From: Bacteroidota bacterium
GTDB taxonomy: Bacteria; Bacteroidota; Bacteroidia; Bacteroidales; P3
Length of the DNA stretch: 64,000 nt
Direction of reading: 5' to 3'
Assembly (NCBI GenBank): GCA_017860255.1
Contig: JAFNAR010000008.1
Location: 1 to 64,000, forward strand
Shown: piece after piece, positions 20,481-49,747 of the stretch
Layout of the letters: every line of letters begins with the position of its first letter
Position numbering within the stretch: position 1 is the stretch's first letter
The notes under the pieces: generated by a model
Database searches by the model: none
Told to the model about the DNA's origin: nothing
What the model saw: the letters and a program-made list of their open reading frames with translations, nothing else
Translations under genes and position numbers: made by a program

Positions 20481-20540
20481 ACTTGATTTTCTTTTCACAA
20501 AAAGAGTAATTCACAAAATAAGTATCCTGTTTCATTAAAT

Positions 20541-20569
20541 AACAAGAATTATTTGAATAAATTCTTGTT
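20541..20569. terminator. Probable terminator after the hydrogenase/YqeY operon
   Basis: AACAAGAATT (20541-20550) pairs with AATTCTTGTT (20560-20569) around a 9-base loop and is followed by T-rich DNA. The stem is AT-rich, so it is a moderate candidate. Confidence 0.55.
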
Positions 20570-20653
20570 TATATATTTGCTGTATAAAATATAGGGAAGC
20601 ATAATCTCATTGTATTTATTCATAATAAGAGATTAAAATATTTTCCAAAATAG

Positions 20654-20683
20654 TTGCGAGGTATAAATAATTTTATATATTTG
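20654..20683 (+). promoter_or_regulatory. Putative promoter in the spacer before the lipoprotein gene
   Basis: A TTG (20654-20656) lies 19 bp before TATATTTG (20676-20683), a full -7 consensus. A second -7-like box (TATATTTG, 20572-20579) lies upstream. The start of the annotated lipoprotein gene is about 370 bp away. The promoter therefore drives a long leader or the short frame at 20713. Confidence 0.5.
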
Positions 20684-20712
20684 CAGCGTTAAACAATTAT
20701 ATTTTATACTTA

Positions 20713-20883
20713 ATGCTTAACAATTATATAACCCTAAACAAATTCCCCCTGAAATCTCCTCAGGCAACTGAGGAATTATTGTTTTATTACTTTCTTCCTA
20801 TTCCATATAGTATAATAAGTATAAACATCACAAAATATACATTGTCAGCTTTTTTGATAATGTCAAATAAGATTATATTCTAG
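20713..20883 (+). CDS. Possible 56-codon small protein
   Basis: An ATG at 20713, about 30 bp after a full -7 box, opens a 56-codon frame. The product starts MLNNYITLNKFPLKSPQATE and has a hydrophobic C-terminal half (FYYFLPIPYSIISINI) that could be a membrane segment. Within it a stem TCCTCAG-GCAA-CTGAGGA (20757-20774) forms a GNRA-type tetraloop hairpin. No family is recognised. It may instead be the structured leader of the 21052 transcript. Confidence 0.25.
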   Translation: MLNNYITLNKFPLKSPQATEELLFYYFLPIPYSIISINITKYTLSAFLIMSNKIIF

Positions 20884-20934
20884 AAATAGTCAAGAAGATA
20901 TTTATCATAATGTAAGATTAAGGAGACTTACAAA

Positions 20935-21005
20935 CATGGAGTTTAGTGAGAGCCATGAAAAATAAAGGGTAGCAGAACCATGGAATAGAAAATGCTTAAA
21001 CCATG
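20935..21005. repeat. Weak CATG-centred repeats, possible decayed dyad array
   Basis: CATG cores occur at 20935, 20954, 20979 and 21002 (steps 19, 25 and 23, mean near 22) within related contexts (ACATGGA, CCATGAA, CCATGGA, CCATGTA). The mean pitch matches the clear arrays but the regularity does not. The call is tentative. Confidence 0.35.
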
Positions 21006-21051
21006 TAAAATGAAAAGTAGCATAAATAAGTTATTTAAAAATTATTGATAA

Positions 21052-21741
21052 ATGAAAAAGAAGCTTATTAACTTAAAGGCACTAATCATTGTATTAGTAA
21101 CTTCACTTATTATTCCGTTATTCTTTTCTTGTAATGGAGAAGAAGATTATGAAGATTTAGAGTATTATCCTTATGCTTTGGATGGATATGTAACCGATTA
21201 TCATACTGGCAAACCACTTGCCAATGTTTCTTTTGATATTAGTTGTGGGAAATATTTTGTAGGTATGCAAAATCAAACAGAAAGATATTATTACGAAGGT
21301 GTTGCAACTACAGATTCAAGAGGATATTATAAAATTAGAATTCCAAAAGGGAATAAGGATATGGAATTTGAAGTAATATTCCCTCATCCGCAAGATATTT
21401 CAGGTTATAATTTTGAAGGTGGAGAATTTAGCTGTAAACAATTTGCAACAACCTCTGTAAGAGCAAACATTTCTGCTATAAGTTATGGATATTTGAAAGT
21501 AATTATGCCTAAAAGTGGAGGAGGATGGAATCAAGGTATGATTGGTAGTAGTTATGGACAACCTCGTTATGTTGATAAGTTTCTTTACACAAGAGTTATT
21601 AATGATTCTTTGAAATATGACTTTTATATAGTTGCTGCATCAACAGGCTGGGGTGGGTATTATGCAACTGATACTATAAAAATATTTGATTATGAAATAA
21701 TGAATCCAAGAGATACAATAGTAATAAATGTAAAACAATAG
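21052..21741 (+). CDS. Putative lipoprotein with an Ig-like/carboxypeptidase-regulatory domain
   Basis: A 229-residue protein with a lipoprotein signal peptide; the lipidated residue should be C27 (context PLFFSC), followed by an acidic stretch (NGEEDYEDLE). A beta-sandwich-like domain follows (ALDGYVTDYHTGKPLANVSF, then TTDSRGYYKIRIPKG), typical of CarboxypepD_reg-like modules. It resembles Bacteroidetes putative lipoproteins annotated near radical-SAM genes, but none is here. It is 5 bp upstream of the giant hydrolase gene, so the two form an operon at the cell envelope. Confidence 0.72.
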   Translation: MKKKLINLKALIIVLVTSLIIPLFFSCNGEEDYEDLEYYPYALDGYVTDYHTGKPLANVSFDISCGKYFVGMQNQTERYYYEGVATTDSRGYYKIRIPKGNKDMEFEVIFPHPQDISGYNFEGGEFSCKQFATTSVRANISAISYGYLKVIMPKSGGGWNQGMIGSSYGQPRYVDKFLYTRVINDSLKYDFYIVAASTGWGGYYATDTIKIFDYEIMNPRDTIVINVKQ

Positions 21742-21746
21742 AATAT

Positions 21747-23372
21747 ATGAAAAAGATATTATTAATTATAGGATTATTTTTTACGTCAATAACTCTATTT
21801 TCTCAGACAGAATTTACAAACATATTTGATAATGTTTATAAAAACGTAAAGTTTGATACAGTTTCAAGTGGTATTTTGCATAATAGAGTAATATTTTCAC
21901 TTGCTAATTTGAAAAATTATAATGATGTTCCTGACACAACTAATGCAAAACATTTTATTCAAGCATACTATGAGTTGCAAAATGCAACAGTAACAAAAGA
22001 TAAGATATTTGATAGATCTATAGATGAATTATATTTACCAATGAATATTCCTAATGACTCAAATATTAACATTGGTATTATATATTCAGATTATCATATT
22101 ATAGATACTAATGCTTTCTATAATGGGAAGTTATTAATAATTGATAGTTCAATTTATATAAATGACACTAATTCAAATCCATTATTTACCAAGAAAACAT
22201 TATTTTTATCATCACCATTAATTAATTACACCCATAATCTATATTTGAATTTTTCGATAAATAGTGATTATTATTTTAAAAACACAGAAATTAGCATAAA
22301 TAAATTATTGATTAATTTTGGAGATGGATTAAGCTTTAGAGAGTTTATTATTGATAGTAATTTTAACATTATTCAGAATATAATTTATTCAAATTATGGA
22401 GAAAAAATAATTACACTAAAAGGTATAACAGAATATGGAGATACCCTGACTTCATTTGCCAAAATATTTGTTCGTGCTAAAGCAGATTTGGTAGAGAAAG
22501 AAAGGAAAGCAGATTTCTATATAGTATCAGATATTTCATATAAAGGTAATGGAGAAACAACTGCAATAAAAGGAGAGGCAGAGATGAGAGTCTATTATTC
22601 AGATGAAACAGTAGAGAGCAAACAAATAAAACGACCTATTTTAATTGTTGATGGATTTGATCCTGGCGATAAAAGACAATTTGAAGAAGATATTGTTGAT
22701 AACCCTGCGGATGATAAAGGAGGGATTTGGGGATTATTAAAATATGAATATAATGAAGATACTATTTATTTGGGAGATACTTTATTGAAAAAAGGATACG
22801 ATATTATTATATTAAATTTTCCATTAATAAAGGTTTCTAATCAACATAATAGTTCATTTGATCCAAATGGTTATTATTATCGTGATGGAGGTTCAGATTT
22901 TATAGAAAGAAATGCCTTAGCTTGTATAAAAGCAATTGATACAATAAATTATTTTCTTAAAGAATTTGGGAGTAAAGAACAGTTAGTAATAATTGGTCCA
23001 AGTATGGGCGGACAGATAACTCGTTATGCATTAAATTATATGGAAGATAGTTTACCAAGTAGAGATTATAGAGAACATAATACACGTTTATGGGTATCAT
23101 TCGATTCTCCTCATCAAGGAGCAAATATTCCATTAGGCGCACAAGCAGCAGTAAAATATTTTGGGAACATAAGTTCTGACGCATATCTTAAATACGATAA
23201 TATTTTAAGGTCAACAGCAGCAAGACAAATGTTATTATTACATTTGGAGACATATAATAAAGATAATTATTCTTGCTCTCATGATCCTTTATATTCATTA
23301 TATTATAATAAAGTGTACGATATGGGTTTCCTAGTAAATTACGAAAAGTTGCTATTTCAAATGGCAGTTTGA
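21747..23372 (+). CDS. Secreted alpha/beta-hydrolase, N-terminal part of a frameshifted gene
   Basis: 541 codons with a signal peptide (MKKILLIIGLFFTSITLFSQ) and, from about residue 290, a lipase/PGAP1-like alpha/beta-hydrolase domain: RPILIVDGFDPGD, the nucleophile elbow GPSMGGQ and SFDSPHQGANIP. After YDMGF the frame ends in a short nonsense tail. The +1 shifted frame continues FPSKLRKVAISNGSLK straight into the 23369 frame, so this is one gene of about 1650 codons broken by loss of a single base at 23324-23331 (GGGTTTCC). It may be a real mutation or a sequencing error. Confidence 0.8.
   Translation: MKKILLIIGLFFTSITLFSQTEFTNIFDNVYKNVKFDTVSSGILHNRVIFSLANLKNYNDVPDTTNAKHFIQAYYELQNATVTKDKIFDRSIDELYLPMNIPNDSNINIGIIYSDYHIIDTNAFYNGKLLIIDSSIYINDTNSNPLFTKKTLFLSSPLINYTHNLYLNFSINSDYYFKNTEISINKLLINFGDGLSFREFIIDSNFNIIQNIIYSNYGEKIITLKGITEYGDTLTSFAKIFVRAKADLVEKERKADFYIVSDISYKGNGETTAIKGEAEMRVYYSDETVESKQIKRPILIVDGFDPGDKRQFEEDIVDNPADDKGGIWGLLKYEYNEDTIYLGDTLLKKGYDIIILNFPLIKVSNQHNSSFDPNGYYYRDGGSDFIERNALACIKAIDTINYFLKEFGSKEQLVIIGPSMGGQITRYALNYMEDSLPSRDYREHNTRLWVSFDSPHQGANIPLGAQAAVKYFGNISSDAYLKYDNILRSTAARQMLLLHLETYNKDNYSCSHDPLYSLYYNKVYDMGFLVNYEKLLFQMAV
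23324..23331 (+). other. Frameshift site joining 21747 and 23369
   Basis: In GGGTTTCC, adding one base to any of the three short runs restores one continuous frame reading MGFPSKLRKVAISNGSLK. The overlapping stop (TGA, 23370-23372) and TTG start are then artefacts. Confidence 0.8.
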
Positions 23373-26300
23373 AGGATATTAGGACAGGATATGCAGAAAA
23401 ACCTGTTTTATCAGCTTCAATTAATAATTTATTCTTGTTAGGTTTATCGATAGCTTTTAAAGATCCTATTTACACCTTACTTTCTGATTTAAGAATTTGT
23501 GACATAAAAATGGCTCCACAATATGGTGCAGGTCCCAAGGTAGTATTTAAAGGATTATGGATTATGCCAAATCATGAAGTACAACAATCATCATCAACAA
23601 ATCATTGTAGTTATGATGTTACACATGGGGGTACTTTGGATACTTACAAAGATATTCGGGATATAATGAAAAAATATTCTTTATTTATTTATTCAAGTTT
23701 AGATCAGCCATCTCATTGTTTTATGCCTACAAAAAGCACATTAGCTTATAAAAATGGTCGTCCTGATTTATGTGAAGATTTATCAGATAGAGATTTAGTT
23801 GCTGGTCAATATACCATTTTTGACAACTATTGGGGATCTATAGGTTCAAATATGGCACACGTTACATTTAACAAATCTTTACACGAGTGGTTTAATAAAG
23901 AACTTGATACTTATATTAAAGGAGAAAGAGAGCTTACAATATGTGGTACATATCAATATACTATTAATAGTTTTAATGTAGATAGCACATTACAATGGGA
24001 ATGCAGTGATAACTTACAAATTATCTCAGATCCAAGAAATCATACTTTGTCAATTAAACCTCTTCAACCAGGCAATGGATGGATAAGAGCCATAAATTCT
24101 CCTGATTATAGGCAAGATACTTTAGCTTATTATCAAATATATGTAGGGAGCACAGATTTTATCACATCAACAGAAACAACAGAAAGCACTACTTGGAATA
24201 CTGATTTAAATATTGGTAGTGATTTTACCATAAAAACAGGACATACATTGACTATTCAAAATGCAAGAATATCCATTGCTTACGATGTGAAAATTAAAAT
24301 TGAAGCAGGAGCAAAGCTTATTATTGATAACTCTACACTAACAAATTATTGTGGTAGTAATTATTGGGGAGGAATAGAAGTTTATGGGCATAAAAATCAA
24401 CCTCAATTAGAACAATATCAAGGTACATTAATAGTAAAGAATAATTCAATAATAGAAAATTCACGTAATGCAATATCAACATGGAGGACTAATGATTGGA
24501 ACTCAATGGGAGGAATTGTTAAGGCGGAAAATTCTACCTTTAGAAACAACATACGTAGTGCAGAATTTTTATCATATAAAAATACTAATTCTAACAGTGA
24601 AGAAATATCAAATGTAAGCAGGTTTACAAATTGTACTTTCACATGGGATAGAAGTATGTTCCATCATGATAAAACAAGTCTAAGTCATGTAACCCTATGG
24701 GATGTAAAGGATGTCATGTTTATTGGATGTGATTTTACAGACAACCAAATACTAAATAATTCTATTATAAAACATGGGATACTTGCTGAGGACGCTGGAT
24801 TTAAGGTGTTAGCCAAAATAACTCCATCTTCTCAAGGATTTATCTTGGATAAGAGTCAATTTTCCAGTTTAAACTATGGAATAAGAGTATCAAATACCGA
24901 AAAATCCGTTGAGGTAATGGATTCTTATTTTGATGATAATTTCTGTGGAGTTTTTGCGACATCAGCTAATAACCTTACGATTACTACGAATGAATTGAAG
25001 CTAAAGCCTGTTCTTAATATTAGAGAACTTTATCCAACAGAATTAGCTTATGGTGTTGTTATAGATAATAGTATAGGTTATAAAATTGAACAAAATAACT
25101 TCTTCGGAGAAGAGGAAAACTTAAAAGGAACTGGACTGCAAATTAAAAACTCAGGCAAAGTTGCGAATGAAGTTAGAAACAATATATTTAGAAATTTATT
25201 ATACTCAACTAATGCGATTGGAAGAAACAGAAGAGATTATGATGTTTCGGTTGGGTTAAAATATATTTGTAATGATTTTAAAGATACTAAATATGGAATA
25301 TCTGTTATTAATAATTCTAATGATACCTGGTCTGGTATAGATATATATCAAAATGGAGGGAATATTACTCAACCAGCAGAAAATATTTTTGATAACAAGG
25401 GAAATCCTTTGTTTAGTGATATTTATATAGCAGATGATTCTAGACCAATTTTTTATACTTGTTTTTTAGATGGTAGTAATAAAGATCCTTTGTCTATAAG
25501 TTCTAATATTATAAAAAATGGTGCAGGGAATGGTGTAGCTAGTGAAACAGATTGCACAAGAGATTATGGAATATTGGATGATTTGGAATTACATAATCAT
25601 CATACCTTCATTGAAAATGAGTATCTGACATTACTATATAATTATAATAATTTATTAGATGGAGGTTCAAAAGATGAATTACTTGATAAATTATTAGACT
25701 CATGGGAAGGAGATGTTTGGGACTTAAGACAAGCATATTTAGATGCATCACCTTATTTGTCTCCTGATGTTTTGAAAGAACTTGCCTTATCAGAGAAACT
25801 GCCATTGGCAGTATATTTAGAAGTTGCACTATCAAATCCAGAAGGTACTCAAAAAGATGAATATATTGACTTTATGAAATCAACAGAAGGAGAAAACTTA
25901 TTAACCCCTACAGGAATAGAACTTATTAAAGGCAGCTGGGATACAAAAACATTTAGAGCTACACTTGAAAGTAATATATCATCAAAGCTAAGTGATATGG
26001 AAGAAGTCTCCAGAACAATAATATATAGAATTATTAATGATTCTACAGGAGTAAATATTTCAAACTATAGAGATAGGTTAAACTCAATTAGAAATATTGA
26101 AGCAAAATACGAATTGGTAGACTCATATATTGGAACAAAGGAATACAATACAGCAGAGACCTTGCTCAATACATTACTCACTGACCCTAACAATGAAAAG
26201 TATAATGCTAATGATATTAATGACTATTTATTACTATTAAGCATTATGAGAGATAAAAATGACACTACTAATCTTATCCCAATTGATGAAAGATTAGAAA

Positions 26301-26710
26301 CATTATCTAATTCATCCACAAGAGCAGGAGCAAAAGCAAAAGCTTATTTATACTTTAATAATCAAGAAACAGATTATCATCCTGATTATGTAGATTTAGA
26401 ACTAAACGAAAAATCTAAAGTTATTAGAAGAGTAACATCATCTCTTGATAAATTGTTTGCAGCTAATGTAAAAATTTCTCCTAATCCAGCTAAAGATCAT
26501 ATTATTTTAACTTATAATTTACCTCCAAGACAAATATATACTATAAAGATATATGATAATAAGGGAATAGAATTATTAACAAATACTCTTAAGAATAATA
26601 AGGGAGTGCAGACAATAGAATTAAAAAATTTTAAATCCGGTGCTTATTACTATACTATTACAGATAGTAAGAGCGTGATTAAGTCTGATAAAATAATAAT
26701 TGTAAAATAA
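23369..26710 (+). CDS. C-terminal part of the frameshifted surface hydrolase: beta-helix plus T9SS sorting domain
   Basis: The frame opens at a TTG, not at a credible start, and reads on from the 21747 gene. It holds the end of the hydrolase region. A right-handed parallel beta-helix follows (roughly residues 265-640 of this part, repeated short strands with Asn/Gly turns), then a helical region. The C-terminus is a type IX secretion sorting domain (VKISPNPAKDHIILTYNLPP, then GAYYYTITDSKS and KIIIVK). The complete product would be exported and anchored at the surface. A terminator follows at 26721. Confidence 0.8.
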   Translation: MKDIRTGYAEKPVLSASINNLFLLGLSIAFKDPIYTLLSDLRICDIKMAPQYGAGPKVVFKGLWIMPNHEVQQSSSTNHCSYDVTHGGTLDTYKDIRDIMKKYSLFIYSSLDQPSHCFMPTKSTLAYKNGRPDLCEDLSDRDLVAGQYTIFDNYWGSIGSNMAHVTFNKSLHEWFNKELDTYIKGERELTICGTYQYTINSFNVDSTLQWECSDNLQIISDPRNHTLSIKPLQPGNGWIRAINSPDYRQDTLAYYQIYVGSTDFITSTETTESTTWNTDLNIGSDFTIKTGHTLTIQNARISIAYDVKIKIEAGAKLIIDNSTLTNYCGSNYWGGIEVYGHKNQPQLEQYQGTLIVKNNSIIENSRNAISTWRTNDWNSMGGIVKAENSTFRNNIRSAEFLSYKNTNSNSEEISNVSRFTNCTFTWDRSMFHHDKTSLSHVTLWDVKDVMFIGCDFTDNQILNNSIIKHGILAEDAGFKVLAKITPSSQGFILDKSQFSSLNYGIRVSNTEKSVEVMDSYFDDNFCGVFATSANNLTITTNELKLKPVLNIRELYPTELAYGVVIDNSIGYKIEQNNFFGEEENLKGTGLQIKNSGKVANEVRNNIFRNLLYSTNAIGRNRRDYDVSVGLKYICNDFKDTKYGISVINNSNDTWSGIDIYQNGGNITQPAENIFDNKGNPLFSDIYIADDSRPIFYTCFLDGSNKDPLSISSNIIKNGAGNGVASETDCTRDYGILDDLELHNHHTFIENEYLTLLYNYNNLLDGGSKDELLDKLLDSWEGDVWDLRQAYLDASPYLSPDVLKELALSEKLPLAVYLEVALSNPEGTQKDEYIDFMKSTEGENLLTPTGIELIKGSWDTKTFRATLESNISSKLSDMEEVSRTIIYRIINDSTGVNISNYRDRLNSIRNIEAKYELVDSYIGTKEYNTAETLLNTLLTDPNNEKYNANDINDYLLLLSIMRDKNDTTNLIPIDERLETLSNSSTRAGAKAKAYLYFNNQETDYHPDYVDLELNEKSKVIRRVTSSLDKLFAANVKISPNPAKDHIILTYNLPPRQIYTIKIYDNKGIELLTNTLKNNKGVQTIELKNFKSGAYYYTITDSKSVIKSDKIIIVK

Positions 26711-26720
26711 TAACTTTCTA

Positions 26721-26764
26721 ATTGCAGGTAATTTGATAATTAAGTTTATTGGATTACCTGCAAT
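26721..26764 (+). terminator. Intrinsic terminator
   Basis: ATTGCAGGTAAT (26721-26732) pairs perfectly with ATTACCTGCAAT (26753-26764) over 12 bp, followed by TTTCTTTT. It ends the lipoprotein/hydrolase operon and overlaps the first codons of the longer frame open for the next gene, so that gene starts later, at 26803. Confidence 0.85.
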
Positions 26765-26802
26765 TTTCTTTTACGCTTATAACCAAAATTCACAATATTT
26801 TT

Positions 26803-27906
26803 ATGAAAAACAAGATTATTAAATTCCAAATACTTCTTCTACTTTTATGTGTTGCTTCAATTAATTCATATTCACAAGTAAATATGGAGAGATTTATTGA
26901 GTTTAAATGTAATGTAGGTGCAAATTTTTCTGTTAATCTTGCAGCTGACTCATCAAATACAAAGGCAATAATAAAGAATGGGATGTATGAAAAAATAGTA
27001 AATATTCAGATTGGATTATTTAGTTCCCCGTCTTATAATTTAAATACAAGAGATACAATTATAAGAATATATGGTAATGTAACAAAGATAGACTTTAGAT
27101 GTTCTGATGGTATTATAAGAGGTTTTAATATAGATAGTAATTCTTATTTAACCCAAATATGGGCATATAACTTAGTATATAAAAATGTTTCTTTCAATAA
27201 TTCTAATAATTTGGAGGTTTTGTATTTACAATACAGCAGTATAGAAAGTATTGATGTTCGCAACTTGGAAAACTTAATATATCTTGGTGTCCCAGGGAAT
27301 GAAGAATTAACCAAACTTGATCTAAGAGAACTGACAAGATTAAAAATCTTAATGTTTCAAAATACTGGAGTATCAGATATTAATATTAATGGATTAAATG
27401 AGTTAAGAGACATAGATTGCTATAATACTAATCTTTCAACTATGGGCTATGATTCTCTATTCTGTGCTTTGCCTGAGTGTTCGGACAGCCTTTCTGGAAT
27501 GATTGTTGTAATATATGATTCAACATATTCAGATTTCCCTACCTATATGTCATCAAACTCACAGAATTTAATATCTAAGAATTGGTTTCCTACGGATAGA
27601 AATTATCAATTAATGCCTCCATCTTACGGAACATTTGATTGTAGTTCAATTGGGATGGATGATATTGAATTAGATTTTGTTGAAGCAAAGGTTTATCCTA
27701 ATCCTGCAATTGATTATTTAAGTATTGAAACAAAAGAAGTGGTTCAAATGCTTGAAGTTTATGATGCTTTAGGGAGAAGGGCTATTTCAAAAACTCCTAA
27801 CCAAAATAATTTCTCCCTTGATATTTCCAATCTTGAAAAAGGAATTTATATTCTAAAACTCCAAACCAATGAAGGAATTGGTAGCTATAAGATAGTTAAG
27901 AATTAA
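26803..27906 (+). CDS. T9SS type A cargo protein with LRR-like repeats
   Basis: A 367-residue protein from the ATG at 26803 with a signal peptide (IIKFQILLLLLCVASINSYS). The central region is built of irregular leucine-rich repeats (NLEVLYLQYSSIESIDVRNL, ENLIYLGVPGNEELTKLDLR, LRDIDCYNTNL). The last 80 residues are a T9SS sorting domain (AKVYPNPAIDYLSIETKE, GIYILKLQTNEG). An upstream in-frame start at 26749 lies inside the preceding terminator and is rejected. It is likely exposed at the surface for binding; ligand unknown. Confidence 0.82.
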   Translation: MKNKIIKFQILLLLLCVASINSYSQVNMERFIEFKCNVGANFSVNLAADSSNTKAIIKNGMYEKIVNIQIGLFSSPSYNLNTRDTIIRIYGNVTKIDFRCSDGIIRGFNIDSNSYLTQIWAYNLVYKNVSFNNSNNLEVLYLQYSSIESIDVRNLENLIYLGVPGNEELTKLDLRELTRLKILMFQNTGVSDININGLNELRDIDCYNTNLSTMGYDSLFCALPECSDSLSGMIVVIYDSTYSDFPTYMSSNSQNLISKNWFPTDRNYQLMPPSYGTFDCSSIGMDDIELDFVEAKVYPNPAIDYLSIETKEVVQMLEVYDALGRRAISKTPNQNNFSLDISNLEKGIYILKLQTNEGIGSYKIVKN

Positions 27907-27912
27907 ACAAAA

Positions 27913-27941
27913 GAGAAGTCCAATATTCAATTGAACTTCTC
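27913..27941. terminator. Terminator of the LRR-like gene
   Basis: GAGAAGTCCAAT (27913-27924) pairs with ATTGAACTTCTC (27930-27941) with one mismatch, followed by CTTT. It lies just after the stop codon. Confidence 0.75.
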
Positions 27942-28042
27942 CTTTCATTTTGTTGAACAATTTATTAGTTCAACGGTTTAACTTTTTCCTAAATACCATT
28001 TATAAAATGGCAAGTCGCTACAATGTTTTCCATTTTTTTTGC

Positions 28043-28477
28043 TTAAGGAGTTGAATTCTCCTCTTTGGTTGGTATTTGCAAACCTTTGAAGTCAAGTTGC
28101 TGAGGAGCAACTTTGGCTTCTTTTAGCTTACGGCTAAACTTCTTTGAAGGAGCAAAACGAATATAAACTCGCTTAATGGTTGTTGCATCAACCTCATCCT
28201 TAGAATTTTTTGCTGTTGCAGTGAAGCCAGGAATTAACTTTCCCATTCTTCCAAGTTGCACAGCATTGCCTTCAAAAAATGCCCATTCCAGAACAGTTTC
28301 ATATTGAAGCAAAACGCTTACAATATCACCTTTTGAAAGAGCAGAAGTCTCGGCAATTTTGTCTGCAATGTTCCAGATATCAAGTAAGTCATCTTGGGCA
28401 ATTTTAGCAAGAAACTTAATACCTGGATTAGAACCAACAGAGATTTTTCTCTCTACAATGACATATTTTATTGCCAT
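28043..28477 (-). CDS. HU-family DNA-binding protein (Bacteroidetes type)
   Basis: A 144-residue protein of the HU/IHF-like family found in Bacteroidetes (MAIKYVIVERKISVG, KIAETSALSKGDIVSVL, GRMGKLIPGFTA, VYIRFAPSKKFSRKL). It is longer than classical HU and carries a C-terminal extension. It should bind and bend DNA as a nucleoid protein. The gene is single. The spacer upstream of it carries dyad array 2; a regulatory or structural link between HU-like proteins and the arrays is conceivable but unproven. Confidence 0.88.
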   Translation of the reverse strand: MAIKYVIVERKISVGSNPGIKFLAKIAQDDLLDIWNIADKIAETSALSKGDIVSVLLQYETVLEWAFFEGNAVQLGRMGKLIPGFTATAKNSKDEVDATTIKRVYIRFAPSKKFSRKLKEAKVAPQQLDFKGLQIPTKEENSTP

Positions 28478-28661
28478 AACATTTGGTTTTTAAGTTAATA
28501 CTATGAGAATTTTATTTACAATTCTCCGAAACTTAACAAGGTGTGTATATTAATTAACCCCTTGTATTTTATATAACATCATTAAATGAGGAAAAGTAAA
28601 CTTAAAAAGAATAATTTAAGAATCATTAACATATAAAAAGCTTAATCAAGCCAAACATTCC

Positions 28662-28789
28662 GTTTTACGGCGTAAAATGAGTTGTAAAACGCCTTAATAC
28701 AATCTGTTTTACGCCCTAAAACACCCCTGTAATACGCCGTAAAACAGTTAGTAAAACGGCGTAAAACAAGTTGTAATAGGCTGTAAAAC
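28662..28789. repeat. Phased dyad array 2 (GTTTTACGGCGTAAAAC type, 22-bp pitch)
   Basis: Six 17-bp imperfect palindromes, consensus GTWWWACGSCGTWWWAC, occupy 28662-28678, 28684-28700, 28706-28722, 28729-28745, 28751-28767 and 28773-28789. Their starts are 22, 22, 23, 22 and 22 bp apart. The arms vary between TTTTA, TAAAA and TAATA while the dyad shape is kept. The array lies between the nifJ terminator (28845) and the start of the HU-like gene (28477), outside any reading frame. Confidence 0.92.
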
Positions 28790-28844
28790 GAAAATTATGA
28801 TTTTCTATTGTTAAATTTATTAACAAACAATTTATCATAAAAAA

Positions 28845-47702: not shown

Positions 47703-48230
47703 ATGGAAAAAGCACAGAAATTATTAGCTTTTATCTTAATTGCAGTTATTGCAATAGGTTTTACTTCATGTGAAACAGATGATGATTCAAAGCCAACAAA
47801 ACCAGTAACTCCAACCGAAGAAACATATCCAATTCAAATACCTTCTCCTGGTCCTTCCTGCCCATATGCTGTGTATTGGGATACTTTATCGGAACATGGA
47901 AGTATGGAGGATTGGCTTTATATTATTAATGATCAAGAAACTCTAAGCAGATATGTTGATTTGCAAGACAGCACTGGAAACTGCCAAATCAATTTCGTGG
48001 ATAAAACAGTGCTTTTAGCATATACTTGGACAAGGAATCTAAATCCATCAGAAATAAAAGATACCCTTTGGAAACTCTCTTCAAGTGAATTTCGTTGGGC
48101 GTTAACTTATAATTATTCAGTAGCTCAATCTGCAATTGGAAGAAGTGCAAATATGATTGTAGTTCCAAAAATTGCTGATACTGCAACAGTATCTTTATAT
48201 GTATTAGATGAAGGAGTCCCTCATCCATAA
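47703..48230 (+). CDS. Lipoprotein of unknown function
   Basis: A 175-residue protein with a lipoprotein signal; C23 in IGFTSC is the expected lipidation site, followed by an acidic linker (ETDDDSKPTKPVTPTEE). The folded part (about 60-175) contains YIINDQETLSRYVD and DKTVLLAYTWTRN, which resemble a small beta-rich domain seen in other Bacteroidetes lipoproteins. No catalytic motif. Monocistronic with its own promoter; the long array-bearing spacer follows. Confidence 0.78.
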   Translation: MEKAQKLLAFILIAVIAIGFTSCETDDDSKPTKPVTPTEETYPIQIPSPGPSCPYAVYWDTLSEHGSMEDWLYIINDQETLSRYVDLQDSTGNCQINFVDKTVLLAYTWTRNLNPSEIKDTLWKLSSSEFRWALTYNYSVAQSAIGRSANMIVVPKIADTATVSLYVLDEGVPHP

Positions 48231-48304
48231 GAATTAAGTTAATAGTAAGGTTCTGATTTCAAAAGACTTTATCTTTTAACTTTAAAACCTTATTATTTTA
48301 TTCT

Positions 48305-48554
48305 AAGAGCTTATCTTTTTAAGTCTTTATAGTTATCTCATAAAACTTTTATAGTTATCTCAAGTTCAAAAAGTGCGACTTTCTTCCCAGAAAAGTCGCA
48401 CTTTTAGTCTAAAAAGTCGCACTTCCAAATCAAAAAGTCGCACTTTTTAATTGTTAGATAGTTATCATTAACCTTCGAGATAACTATCTTGGAGAAAAAT
48501 AATAGTGTTATTTAGAGAAATATTAATGTTATTCTATAAAATAATAATGTCTTT
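48305..48554. repeat. Phased dyad array 3 (mixed motifs, 21-22-bp pitch)
   Basis: Twelve elements with centres near 48310.5, 332.5, 354.5, 376, 398, 419, 440, 461.5, 483.5, 506.5, 527.5 and 548.5 (steps 21-23). In order: AAGAGCTTATCT; TATAGTTATC twice; AAGTGCGACTT; AAGTCGCACTT three times; GATAGTTATC; GATAACTATC; AATAGTGTTATT; ATTAATGTTATT; AATAATGTCTTT. Some members are reverse complements of others at their core. The phase is kept across the change of motif. Weaker elements may extend upstream to about 48241. No reading frame; it lies between two plus-strand genes, ending 56 bp before a promoter. Confidence 0.88.
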
Positions 48555-48609
48555 GAGGTAGGATTTCATTATCAAAAAGAAAAAAGATTTCGACAAAATG
48601 TAAAAAATA

Positions 48610-49670: not shown

Positions 49671-49747
49671 GAAACTTGATTCTATTTTATTAAAACTTGA
49701 TTCTAATAAATTATTATTTGATTCCATTTTACTGAAACTTGATTTCA
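49671..49747. repeat. Phased dyad array 6 (GAAACTTGATTTC, 21-bp pitch)
   Basis: TTGATT cores start at 49676, 49697, 49718 and 49739, exactly 21 bp apart, inside longer near-palindromes with GAA/TTC arms (GAAACTTGATTCT, AAAACTTGATTCT, TTATTTGATTCCA, GAAACTTGATTTC). The array lies between the convergent terminators at 49405-49442 and 49779-49808. Because 21 is a multiple of three, an open frame on the minus strand reads through it as a seven-residue repeat (ESSF.K); I regard that frame as a by-product. Confidence 0.85.

Follow-up and report, generated by a model that had tools for sequence, protein, structure and literature searches.

Palindrome arrays at a 21–23-bp pitch and their association with HU-HIG genes in a Bacteroidales lineage

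The window analysed here is a 64,000-nucleotide stretch of contig JAFNAR010000008.1 (assembly GCA_017860255.1), from a Bacteroidota bacterium of the order Bacteroidales. It contains, around 48328–48488, an array of short palindromes that keeps its pitch while its motif changes. Our preferred reading, to which we assign a probability of about two in three, is that this array is an orphan copy of an operator lattice of HU-HIG proteins, whose dimers would sit two helical turns apart; the proposed binding rests on patterns in the sequence. HU-HIG is a greatly expanded family of the HU/IHF superfamily in this lineage.

Layout and distribution of the arrays

Direct reading and a pattern search locate eight strong dyads at 48328–48488, with steps of 22, 21, 22, 21, 21, 22 and 22 bp, which confirms the lattice of 21–23-bp steps described in the first-pass annotation. 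Two TATAGTTATC dyads starting at 48328 and 48350, 22 bp apart (48328–48359), are followed by four AAGTSSSACTT dyads at 48371, 48393, 48414 and 48435 (48371–48445; steps of 22, 21 and 21 bp, also found by TRF) and then by GATAGTTATC at 48457 and GATAACTATC at 48479, again 22 bp apart (48457–48488). AT-rich blocks of 21-bp period, detected by TRF and in phase with the dyads, flank the eight on both sides. The left block consists of TTATCTTTTTACTCTAAAACC repeats (48260–48321; TRF call at 48269–48321 plus congener alignment), and the right block consists of AATAGTGTTATT-like units at a 21-bp step (48496–48550; TRF), and in congener G002 this block is longer by a single 21-bp unit. No strand is assigned to any of these elements or to the other arrays described below. 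Because 21-bp edge units occur on both sides, the lattice spans about 48260–48560, slightly more than was originally delimited, and 12–14 units is a fair count where twelve dyads had been proposed. The units occur in mixed orientation, as originally described (GATAGTTATC/GATAACTATC, GTGCGAC/GTCGCAC), and the dyad-periodicity statistic of the region was attained in only 1 of 500 dinucleotide shuffles.

The motif changes along the lattice are real, but their order is not arbitrary: the composite is built of nested blocks, edge–GATA–AAGT–GATA–edge, an order shared by all seven copies examined in four genomes of the genus. Gain and loss of single units does act inside blocks: the orthologous array of G002 is longer than that of the window by exactly two units, one of 22 bp and one of 21 bp. 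The array is flanked by a small lipoprotein-like gene (47703–48230) on one side and a DUF4870-like/HTH gene pair on the other. The idea that it is a fixed feature of the locus finds no support; congener G007 keeps the flanking aspS and DUF4870-like/HTH genes and lacks both the array and the lipoprotein gene. The neighbouring HTH gene was rejected as a partner of the array because it persists in G007, where the array is missing, and because HTH proteins are not enriched beside arrays.

Similar arrays are abundant in the source genome (G000), of which about 56% was sampled; sequence upstream of almost all its HU-HIG genes was covered as well. There are roughly 200 such arrays, at a density of 80 per Mb. 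Within 1.09 Mb of this genome, TRF finds a period of 21 or 22 in 119 of 440 tandem arrays and in 64 of the 149 with 2.8 copies or more. Among arrays of 20–23 bp, 87 of 90 lie in noncoding DNA. The autocorrelation analysis proposed in the first-pass annotation reveals a large 21/22-bp excess over expectation in noncoding DNA. A strong dyad has another exactly 22.0 bp further on in 113 cases versus 47 ± 6.3 expected (z = 10.5), and the signal recurs at 44.0 bp (z = 8.0). About a dozen palindrome families are represented, among them TCATGSCATGA, ATAATGSCATTAT, AAGGTGGCACCTT, AAAGATGYRCATCTTT, AAGTSSSACTT, GATAGTTATC and AAAGCSGCTTT. The window itself holds a TCATGSCATGA array with a pitch of exactly 22 bp (140–282; TRF), whose motif, in congeners, also precedes a different HU-HIG paralogue, and a 21-bp array of the edge type (AAACTTGATTCTATTTTATTA; 49672–49744; TRF). 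Related genomes (G002, G003, G007, G011 and G021) have 67–192 arrays per Mb in samples of 59–339 kb, as compared to 0–10 in G016 and G012 and 8 in 76 other Bacteroidota loci. Between genomes the motifs change and the pitch stays the same. Searches of the open-access literature returned nothing relevant on the functions of HU-HIG proteins or on Bacteroidales arrays of palindromes at 21–22 bp.

Several local associations were also observed. Elements of the AAAGATGYRCATCTTT family (F5) carry a conserved TTTGCAAATATACAAAA block roughly 110 bp from the array (L030 12103, L042 3235, L052 13335, L060 9482), which reads as a Bacteroidetes-type promoter (TATATTTGC) directed into the array. The palindromic family AAACAATGGCATTGTTT (L238 123–231, L253 18938–19051) has no assigned HU-HIG gene. 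Arrays of the ATATAARGGACATAT family (L032, L027, L053) adjoin a recurring zinc-ribbon protein (MNIQLEKYKGQSTRFTCPKCGRKH...), in two cases together with near-identical HU-HIG genes, perhaps as a small mobile unit. At the start of the window, positions 1–96 belong to an IS3-family element (TGACCCGTCCTGAATAAGGTTGACA...) that is cut by the contig end. At about ten sites in the source genome and congeners, this element lies in or next to a palindrome array, a possible sign of REP-type targeting specificity; the copy in L212 encodes OrfA (HTH_Tnp_1) and OrfB (rve).

HU-HIG genes and their upstream arrays

The partner of the arrays was sought by clustering all ORFs that adjoin them, with no prior candidate. 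Among 90 protein clusters, a single one stands out, comprising proteins of 134–144 residues, 8 of 12 of which have an array beside their gene (p = 2e-4, or about 0.02 when corrected). These proteins are HU-HIG (PF18291; Pfam E values of 1e-21 to 1e-25), with additional hits to PF00216, and a PDB profile search assigns them the HU fold (E = 3e-11). An AF2 model of the monomer (pLDDT 91.9) matches HU (5eka) with Z = 10.3 over 85 residues and the Bacteroides structure 4fmr with Z = 9.7 over 124 aligned residues. The source genome contains about 23 HU-HIG genes, G002, G003, G004 and G006 contain 22–24, and G011 and G022 contain 39 and 42, respectively, whereas G012, G015, G016, G018, G020 and G023 yield 2–3 weak hits at the level of a generic HU. 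Array density follows the same division, at 67–192 per Mb in HU-HIG-expanded genomes versus 0–10 in genomes with generic HU hits only (samples of at least 59 kb).

The arrays lie upstream of the HU-HIG genes. In the source genome, a 20–23-bp array occurs within 350 bp upstream of 14 of the 17 HU-HIG genes for which upstream sequence was available, and of 58 of 1010 controls (5.7%; p = 2e-15), and the same test finds none at the remaining three. Loci L073 and L199, in which an HU gene lies next to an array, were excluded from these enrichment figures and from those for other genomes given below because they had been selected for their arrays. Downstream, no array was found within 350 bp of any of the eight HU-HIG genes tested. 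Outside the source genome, an upstream array precedes 11 of 20 HU-HIG genes, including 5 of 5 in G011 (e.g., four copies of CCCAAAGACTTTGGG at 22 bp), 2 of 3 in G021 (five copies of GATGTACATC) and 2 of 6 in G035, which belongs to another family; the nine at which none was found include both genes of G013 and four of the six in G035. The window provides one example of this arrangement in a minus-strand HU-HIG gene (28046–28477; Pfam E = 1.2e-21), which belongs to the proposed partner family and is not the cognate of the 48-kb array. A 22-bp array of TTACGSCGTAA-type dyads (28666–28789; TRF) lies 189 bp upstream of it. A stretch of about 8 kb with this gene at its right end (20484–28825) is missing from the orthologous stretch of G002, and the right break adjoins the 28666–28789 array. 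Tandem pairs of HU-HIG genes were seen at L268 (G010:C41), L269 (G006:C41), L252 (G000:C42) and L073 (G004:C22); the composite array before the G010 pair combines two kinds of dyad, perhaps one for each protein of the pair.

Individual motifs correspond to individual paralogues. TCATGSCATGA pairs with HU-HIG proteins of the MSKxFGxWKxKF type (G010:C12, G006:C4) and ATAATGSCATTAT with a relative of that type at C54. The paralogues at C61, C20, C56, C42 and C48 pair with AAAGATGCRCATCTTT, AAAGCSGCTTT, AAGTCGGACTT, AAGTGCCACTT and ACACGCCGTGT, respectively, and the window gene at 28046–28477 pairs with TTTACGGCGTAAA. Across pairs, the similarity of HU proteins correlates with that of their motifs (Mantel r = 0.27, p = 0.012), a signal that may be partly due to joint inheritance of gene and operator; motif similarity is 0.74 above 40% protein identity and 0.40 below it. 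The motifs of HU-linked arrays also recur at dispersed sites. At least two copies of such a motif are present in 39 of the 48 strongly palindromic arrays of the source genome, and HU-linked motifs occur in 61 of 114 arrays overall versus 0.15 in column-permuted controls.

The composite type found in the window (GATAGTTATC–AAGTCGCACTT–GATAACTATC) immediately precedes an HU-HIG gene that is intact in a congener (G010:C41), where it is nested as three copies of GATAACTATC, three of AAGTCGCACTT and three of GATAACTATC. Two copies in the source genome run into remnants of a gene of this type: the C27 copy continues into its first dozen codons (MSIKFFKYKRNVPF) and then a stop, and the C20 copy continues into 22 codons (MSIMFFKYKRNVFLYKDLKENY) that are 77% identical to it. 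The window copy has no HU-HIG gene remnant and, given the same composite before G010:C41, is best read as an orphan operator lattice. Within the sampled part of the source genome and its HU-HIG upstream regions, no intact HU-HIG gene carries exactly the window's motif. The nearest intact paralogue there, C42, is 67% identical to the G010 protein and has the motif AAGTGCCACTT. Candidates for a present binder of the window array are the C42 or C56 paralogue, or there may be none. A search of phage records for an analogue of the window locus gave no match.

Evolution and proposed function of the arrays

The first-pass proposal that the spacing itself is the conserved feature holds across unrelated motifs, loci and genera. 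Where WCATGSCATGW dyads have a neighbour at 12–33 bp, the distance is 22 bp in 84 of 84 cases, although these pairs are not independent events because copies share ancestry; the spacers between them comprise 66 distinct sequences with a mean difference of 6.6 of 11 positions (60%). Each motif family has its own pitch of 21, 22 or 23 bp, consistent with two helical turns on one face of the helix. Between G000 and G002, substitutions accumulate in arrays at a nearly normal rate (0.055 versus 0.068 in other noncoding DNA), whereas small indels are depleted (1 per 57 substitutions versus 38 per 437). Four of the six array indels are whole units of 21 or 22 bp. Such gain and loss between congeners would suit a neutral origin, in which an ancestral 21–22-bp array diversified by slippage and homogenisation and the pitch was inherited without selection. 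This is the least probable account that we considered and a most improbable one, as it conflicts with the depletion of small indels, with unrelated motifs in several genera that all repeat at 21–23 bp with hardly another period among the longer arrays, with the specific association with HU-HIG upstream regions, and with the palindromy of the units, 21% of which have at least six of seven pairs versus 0.35% in a column-permuted null. The arrays could also act as RNA, with successive small hairpins in a 3′ or 5′ UTR that control stability or termination. The window array does fold better than its shuffles, with z = −6.1 on one strand and −4.9 on the other, and arrays lie closer to the 3′ ends of genes. 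However, the arms show no co-variation within single units beyond the array consensus (z = 0.5), the sense strand has no significant wobble-pair bias (34 G-T versus 25 A-C mismatches), no Rfam family matches at gathering score, with only sub-threshold microRNA models hit, and RNA linkers would need no exact length, yet the pitch is exact. Sense-strand hairpins were rejected on these grounds, and an RNA role as a whole is very unlikely. Palindromic units without arm co-variation or significant G-T bias favour sequence recognition and fit a symmetric reader rather than selected hairpins. Units that are symmetric and free in orientation are also consistent with a dimer, as the first-pass annotation suggested.

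The leading alternative, though an unlikely one, is that the arrays are selfish extragenic repeats like REP/BIME, copied or mobile and maintained by a mechanism of replication or transposition. HU-HIG would then belong to the selfish element itself, in the role that RAYT has with REP, and would not be a host nucleoid protein. In line with this idea, the array families are dispersed elements whose shared flanks extend beyond the palindromes, their motifs are lineage-specific, and 9 of 11 sampled ends of an IS3-family element lie within 100 bp of an array versus 15% of noncoding positions (two ends of one insertion may both count), as IS elements target REPs (PMC1525189). On the other hand, HU-HIG has no catalytic domain, an exact pitch is not a REP feature, the window units bear no GTAG/CGTC tag, and neither the source genome nor G002 has a Y1/RAYT transposase. 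Because they are absent from the source genome, such transposases were rejected as the source of the palindromes; PF01797 has no hit in G000, G002, G006 or G010. Less probable still is that a different regulator binds the arrays and that HU-HIG genes are favoured members of its regulon. Arrays upstream of HU-HIG genes do occupy the usual operator position, but this model requires a dozen regulators of distinct specificity, no other protein cluster is clearly enriched beside arrays, and the motif follows the HU sequence.

Under the preferred reading, an HU-HIG operator lattice, one homodimer would occupy each palindrome, so that neighbours sit on the same face of the DNA at intervals of two helical turns. 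Lying side by side, the dimers may form a cooperative filament that bends or stiffens the DNA. An array before an HU-HIG gene would then mediate autoregulation, and dispersed arrays might mark or organise intergenic DNA. Copies may have spread by duplication of gene and operator followed by loss of the gene, with arrays evolving through gain and loss of whole units. Several observations count against this reading: the three source-genome HU-HIG genes and the nine in other genomes at which no array was found, the failure to find in the source genome an intact gene with exactly the window's motif, the lack of sequence specificity of textbook HU, and the fact that the GATAGTTATC blocks and AT-rich edge blocks are assigned to no binder. 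A broader proposal, which we hold tentatively and at somewhat less than even odds, is that a genome has dozens of HU paralogues whose homodimers each recognise a separate palindrome. Each paralogue would coat a two-turn lattice of that palindrome, both at its own promoter and at tens of sites between genes, and protein and lattice would co-diversify rapidly between species. One bacterium would then contain parallel, sequence-addressed histone-like systems.

A 2017 survey reportedly recognised novel HU/IHF clades, and to our knowledge most of the numerous divergent HU-like proteins in Bacteroidota await characterisation. HU as classically described binds DNA without sequence specificity, and a comparative study left aside divergent HU-like proteins that failed to align (PMC5683647). 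HU proteins count as unspecific DNA packers. If the pairing of HU paralogues and lattices is true, it would give a function to the divergent HU-like proteins and would explain a whole class of Bacteroidales intergenic repeats. The protein/site pairs would form a natural collection for reading the recognition code of the HU fold, and the helical phasing of a bacterial chromatin-like array would become directly testable.

Comparison with known systems

HU-HIG shares the fold of HU/IHF (PF00216), with a core match to HU and a near full-length match to a known HU-HIG structure (PF18291; PDB 4fmr, BVU_2165). Unlike HU, known as non-sequence-specific, the family here has about 23 paralogues with paralogue-specific palindromic arrays, and unlike the single asymmetric sites bound by IHF, these arrays are palindromic and tandem. 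REP/BIME elements are similar in being extragenic palindromes of about 100 or more copies, arranged in arrays and lineage-specific in sequence, with a cognate RAYT gene flanked by its own repeats and with IS elements that target the repeats (PMC2817692, PMC1525189, PMC3733652). The arrays described here differ in their exact 21–23-bp pitch, in the lack of a GTAG/CGTC foot next to the stem in the window units as read directly, and in a cognate gene that encodes an HU-fold protein and has the array only upstream. A CRISPR was rejected, as it would have near-identical repeats of 24–48 bp and unique spacers of similar size, whereas this array has 21–22-bp units with dyads of 10–13 bp and motif changes within it. 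Pneumococcal BOX elements are modular and intergenic, and their edge modules enclose central repeats that vary in number. The window array shares this plan and differs in unit length, symmetry and partner gene. In autoregulated repressors with multi-site operators and in plasmid iterons, tandem sites about two helical turns apart precede the gene of the binder. By analogy, the HU-HIG arrays are likewise tandem, at about two turns, before the gene of the putative binder, but they number in the hundreds on the chromosome, many gene/motif pairs exist in parallel, and the putative binder has an HU fold.
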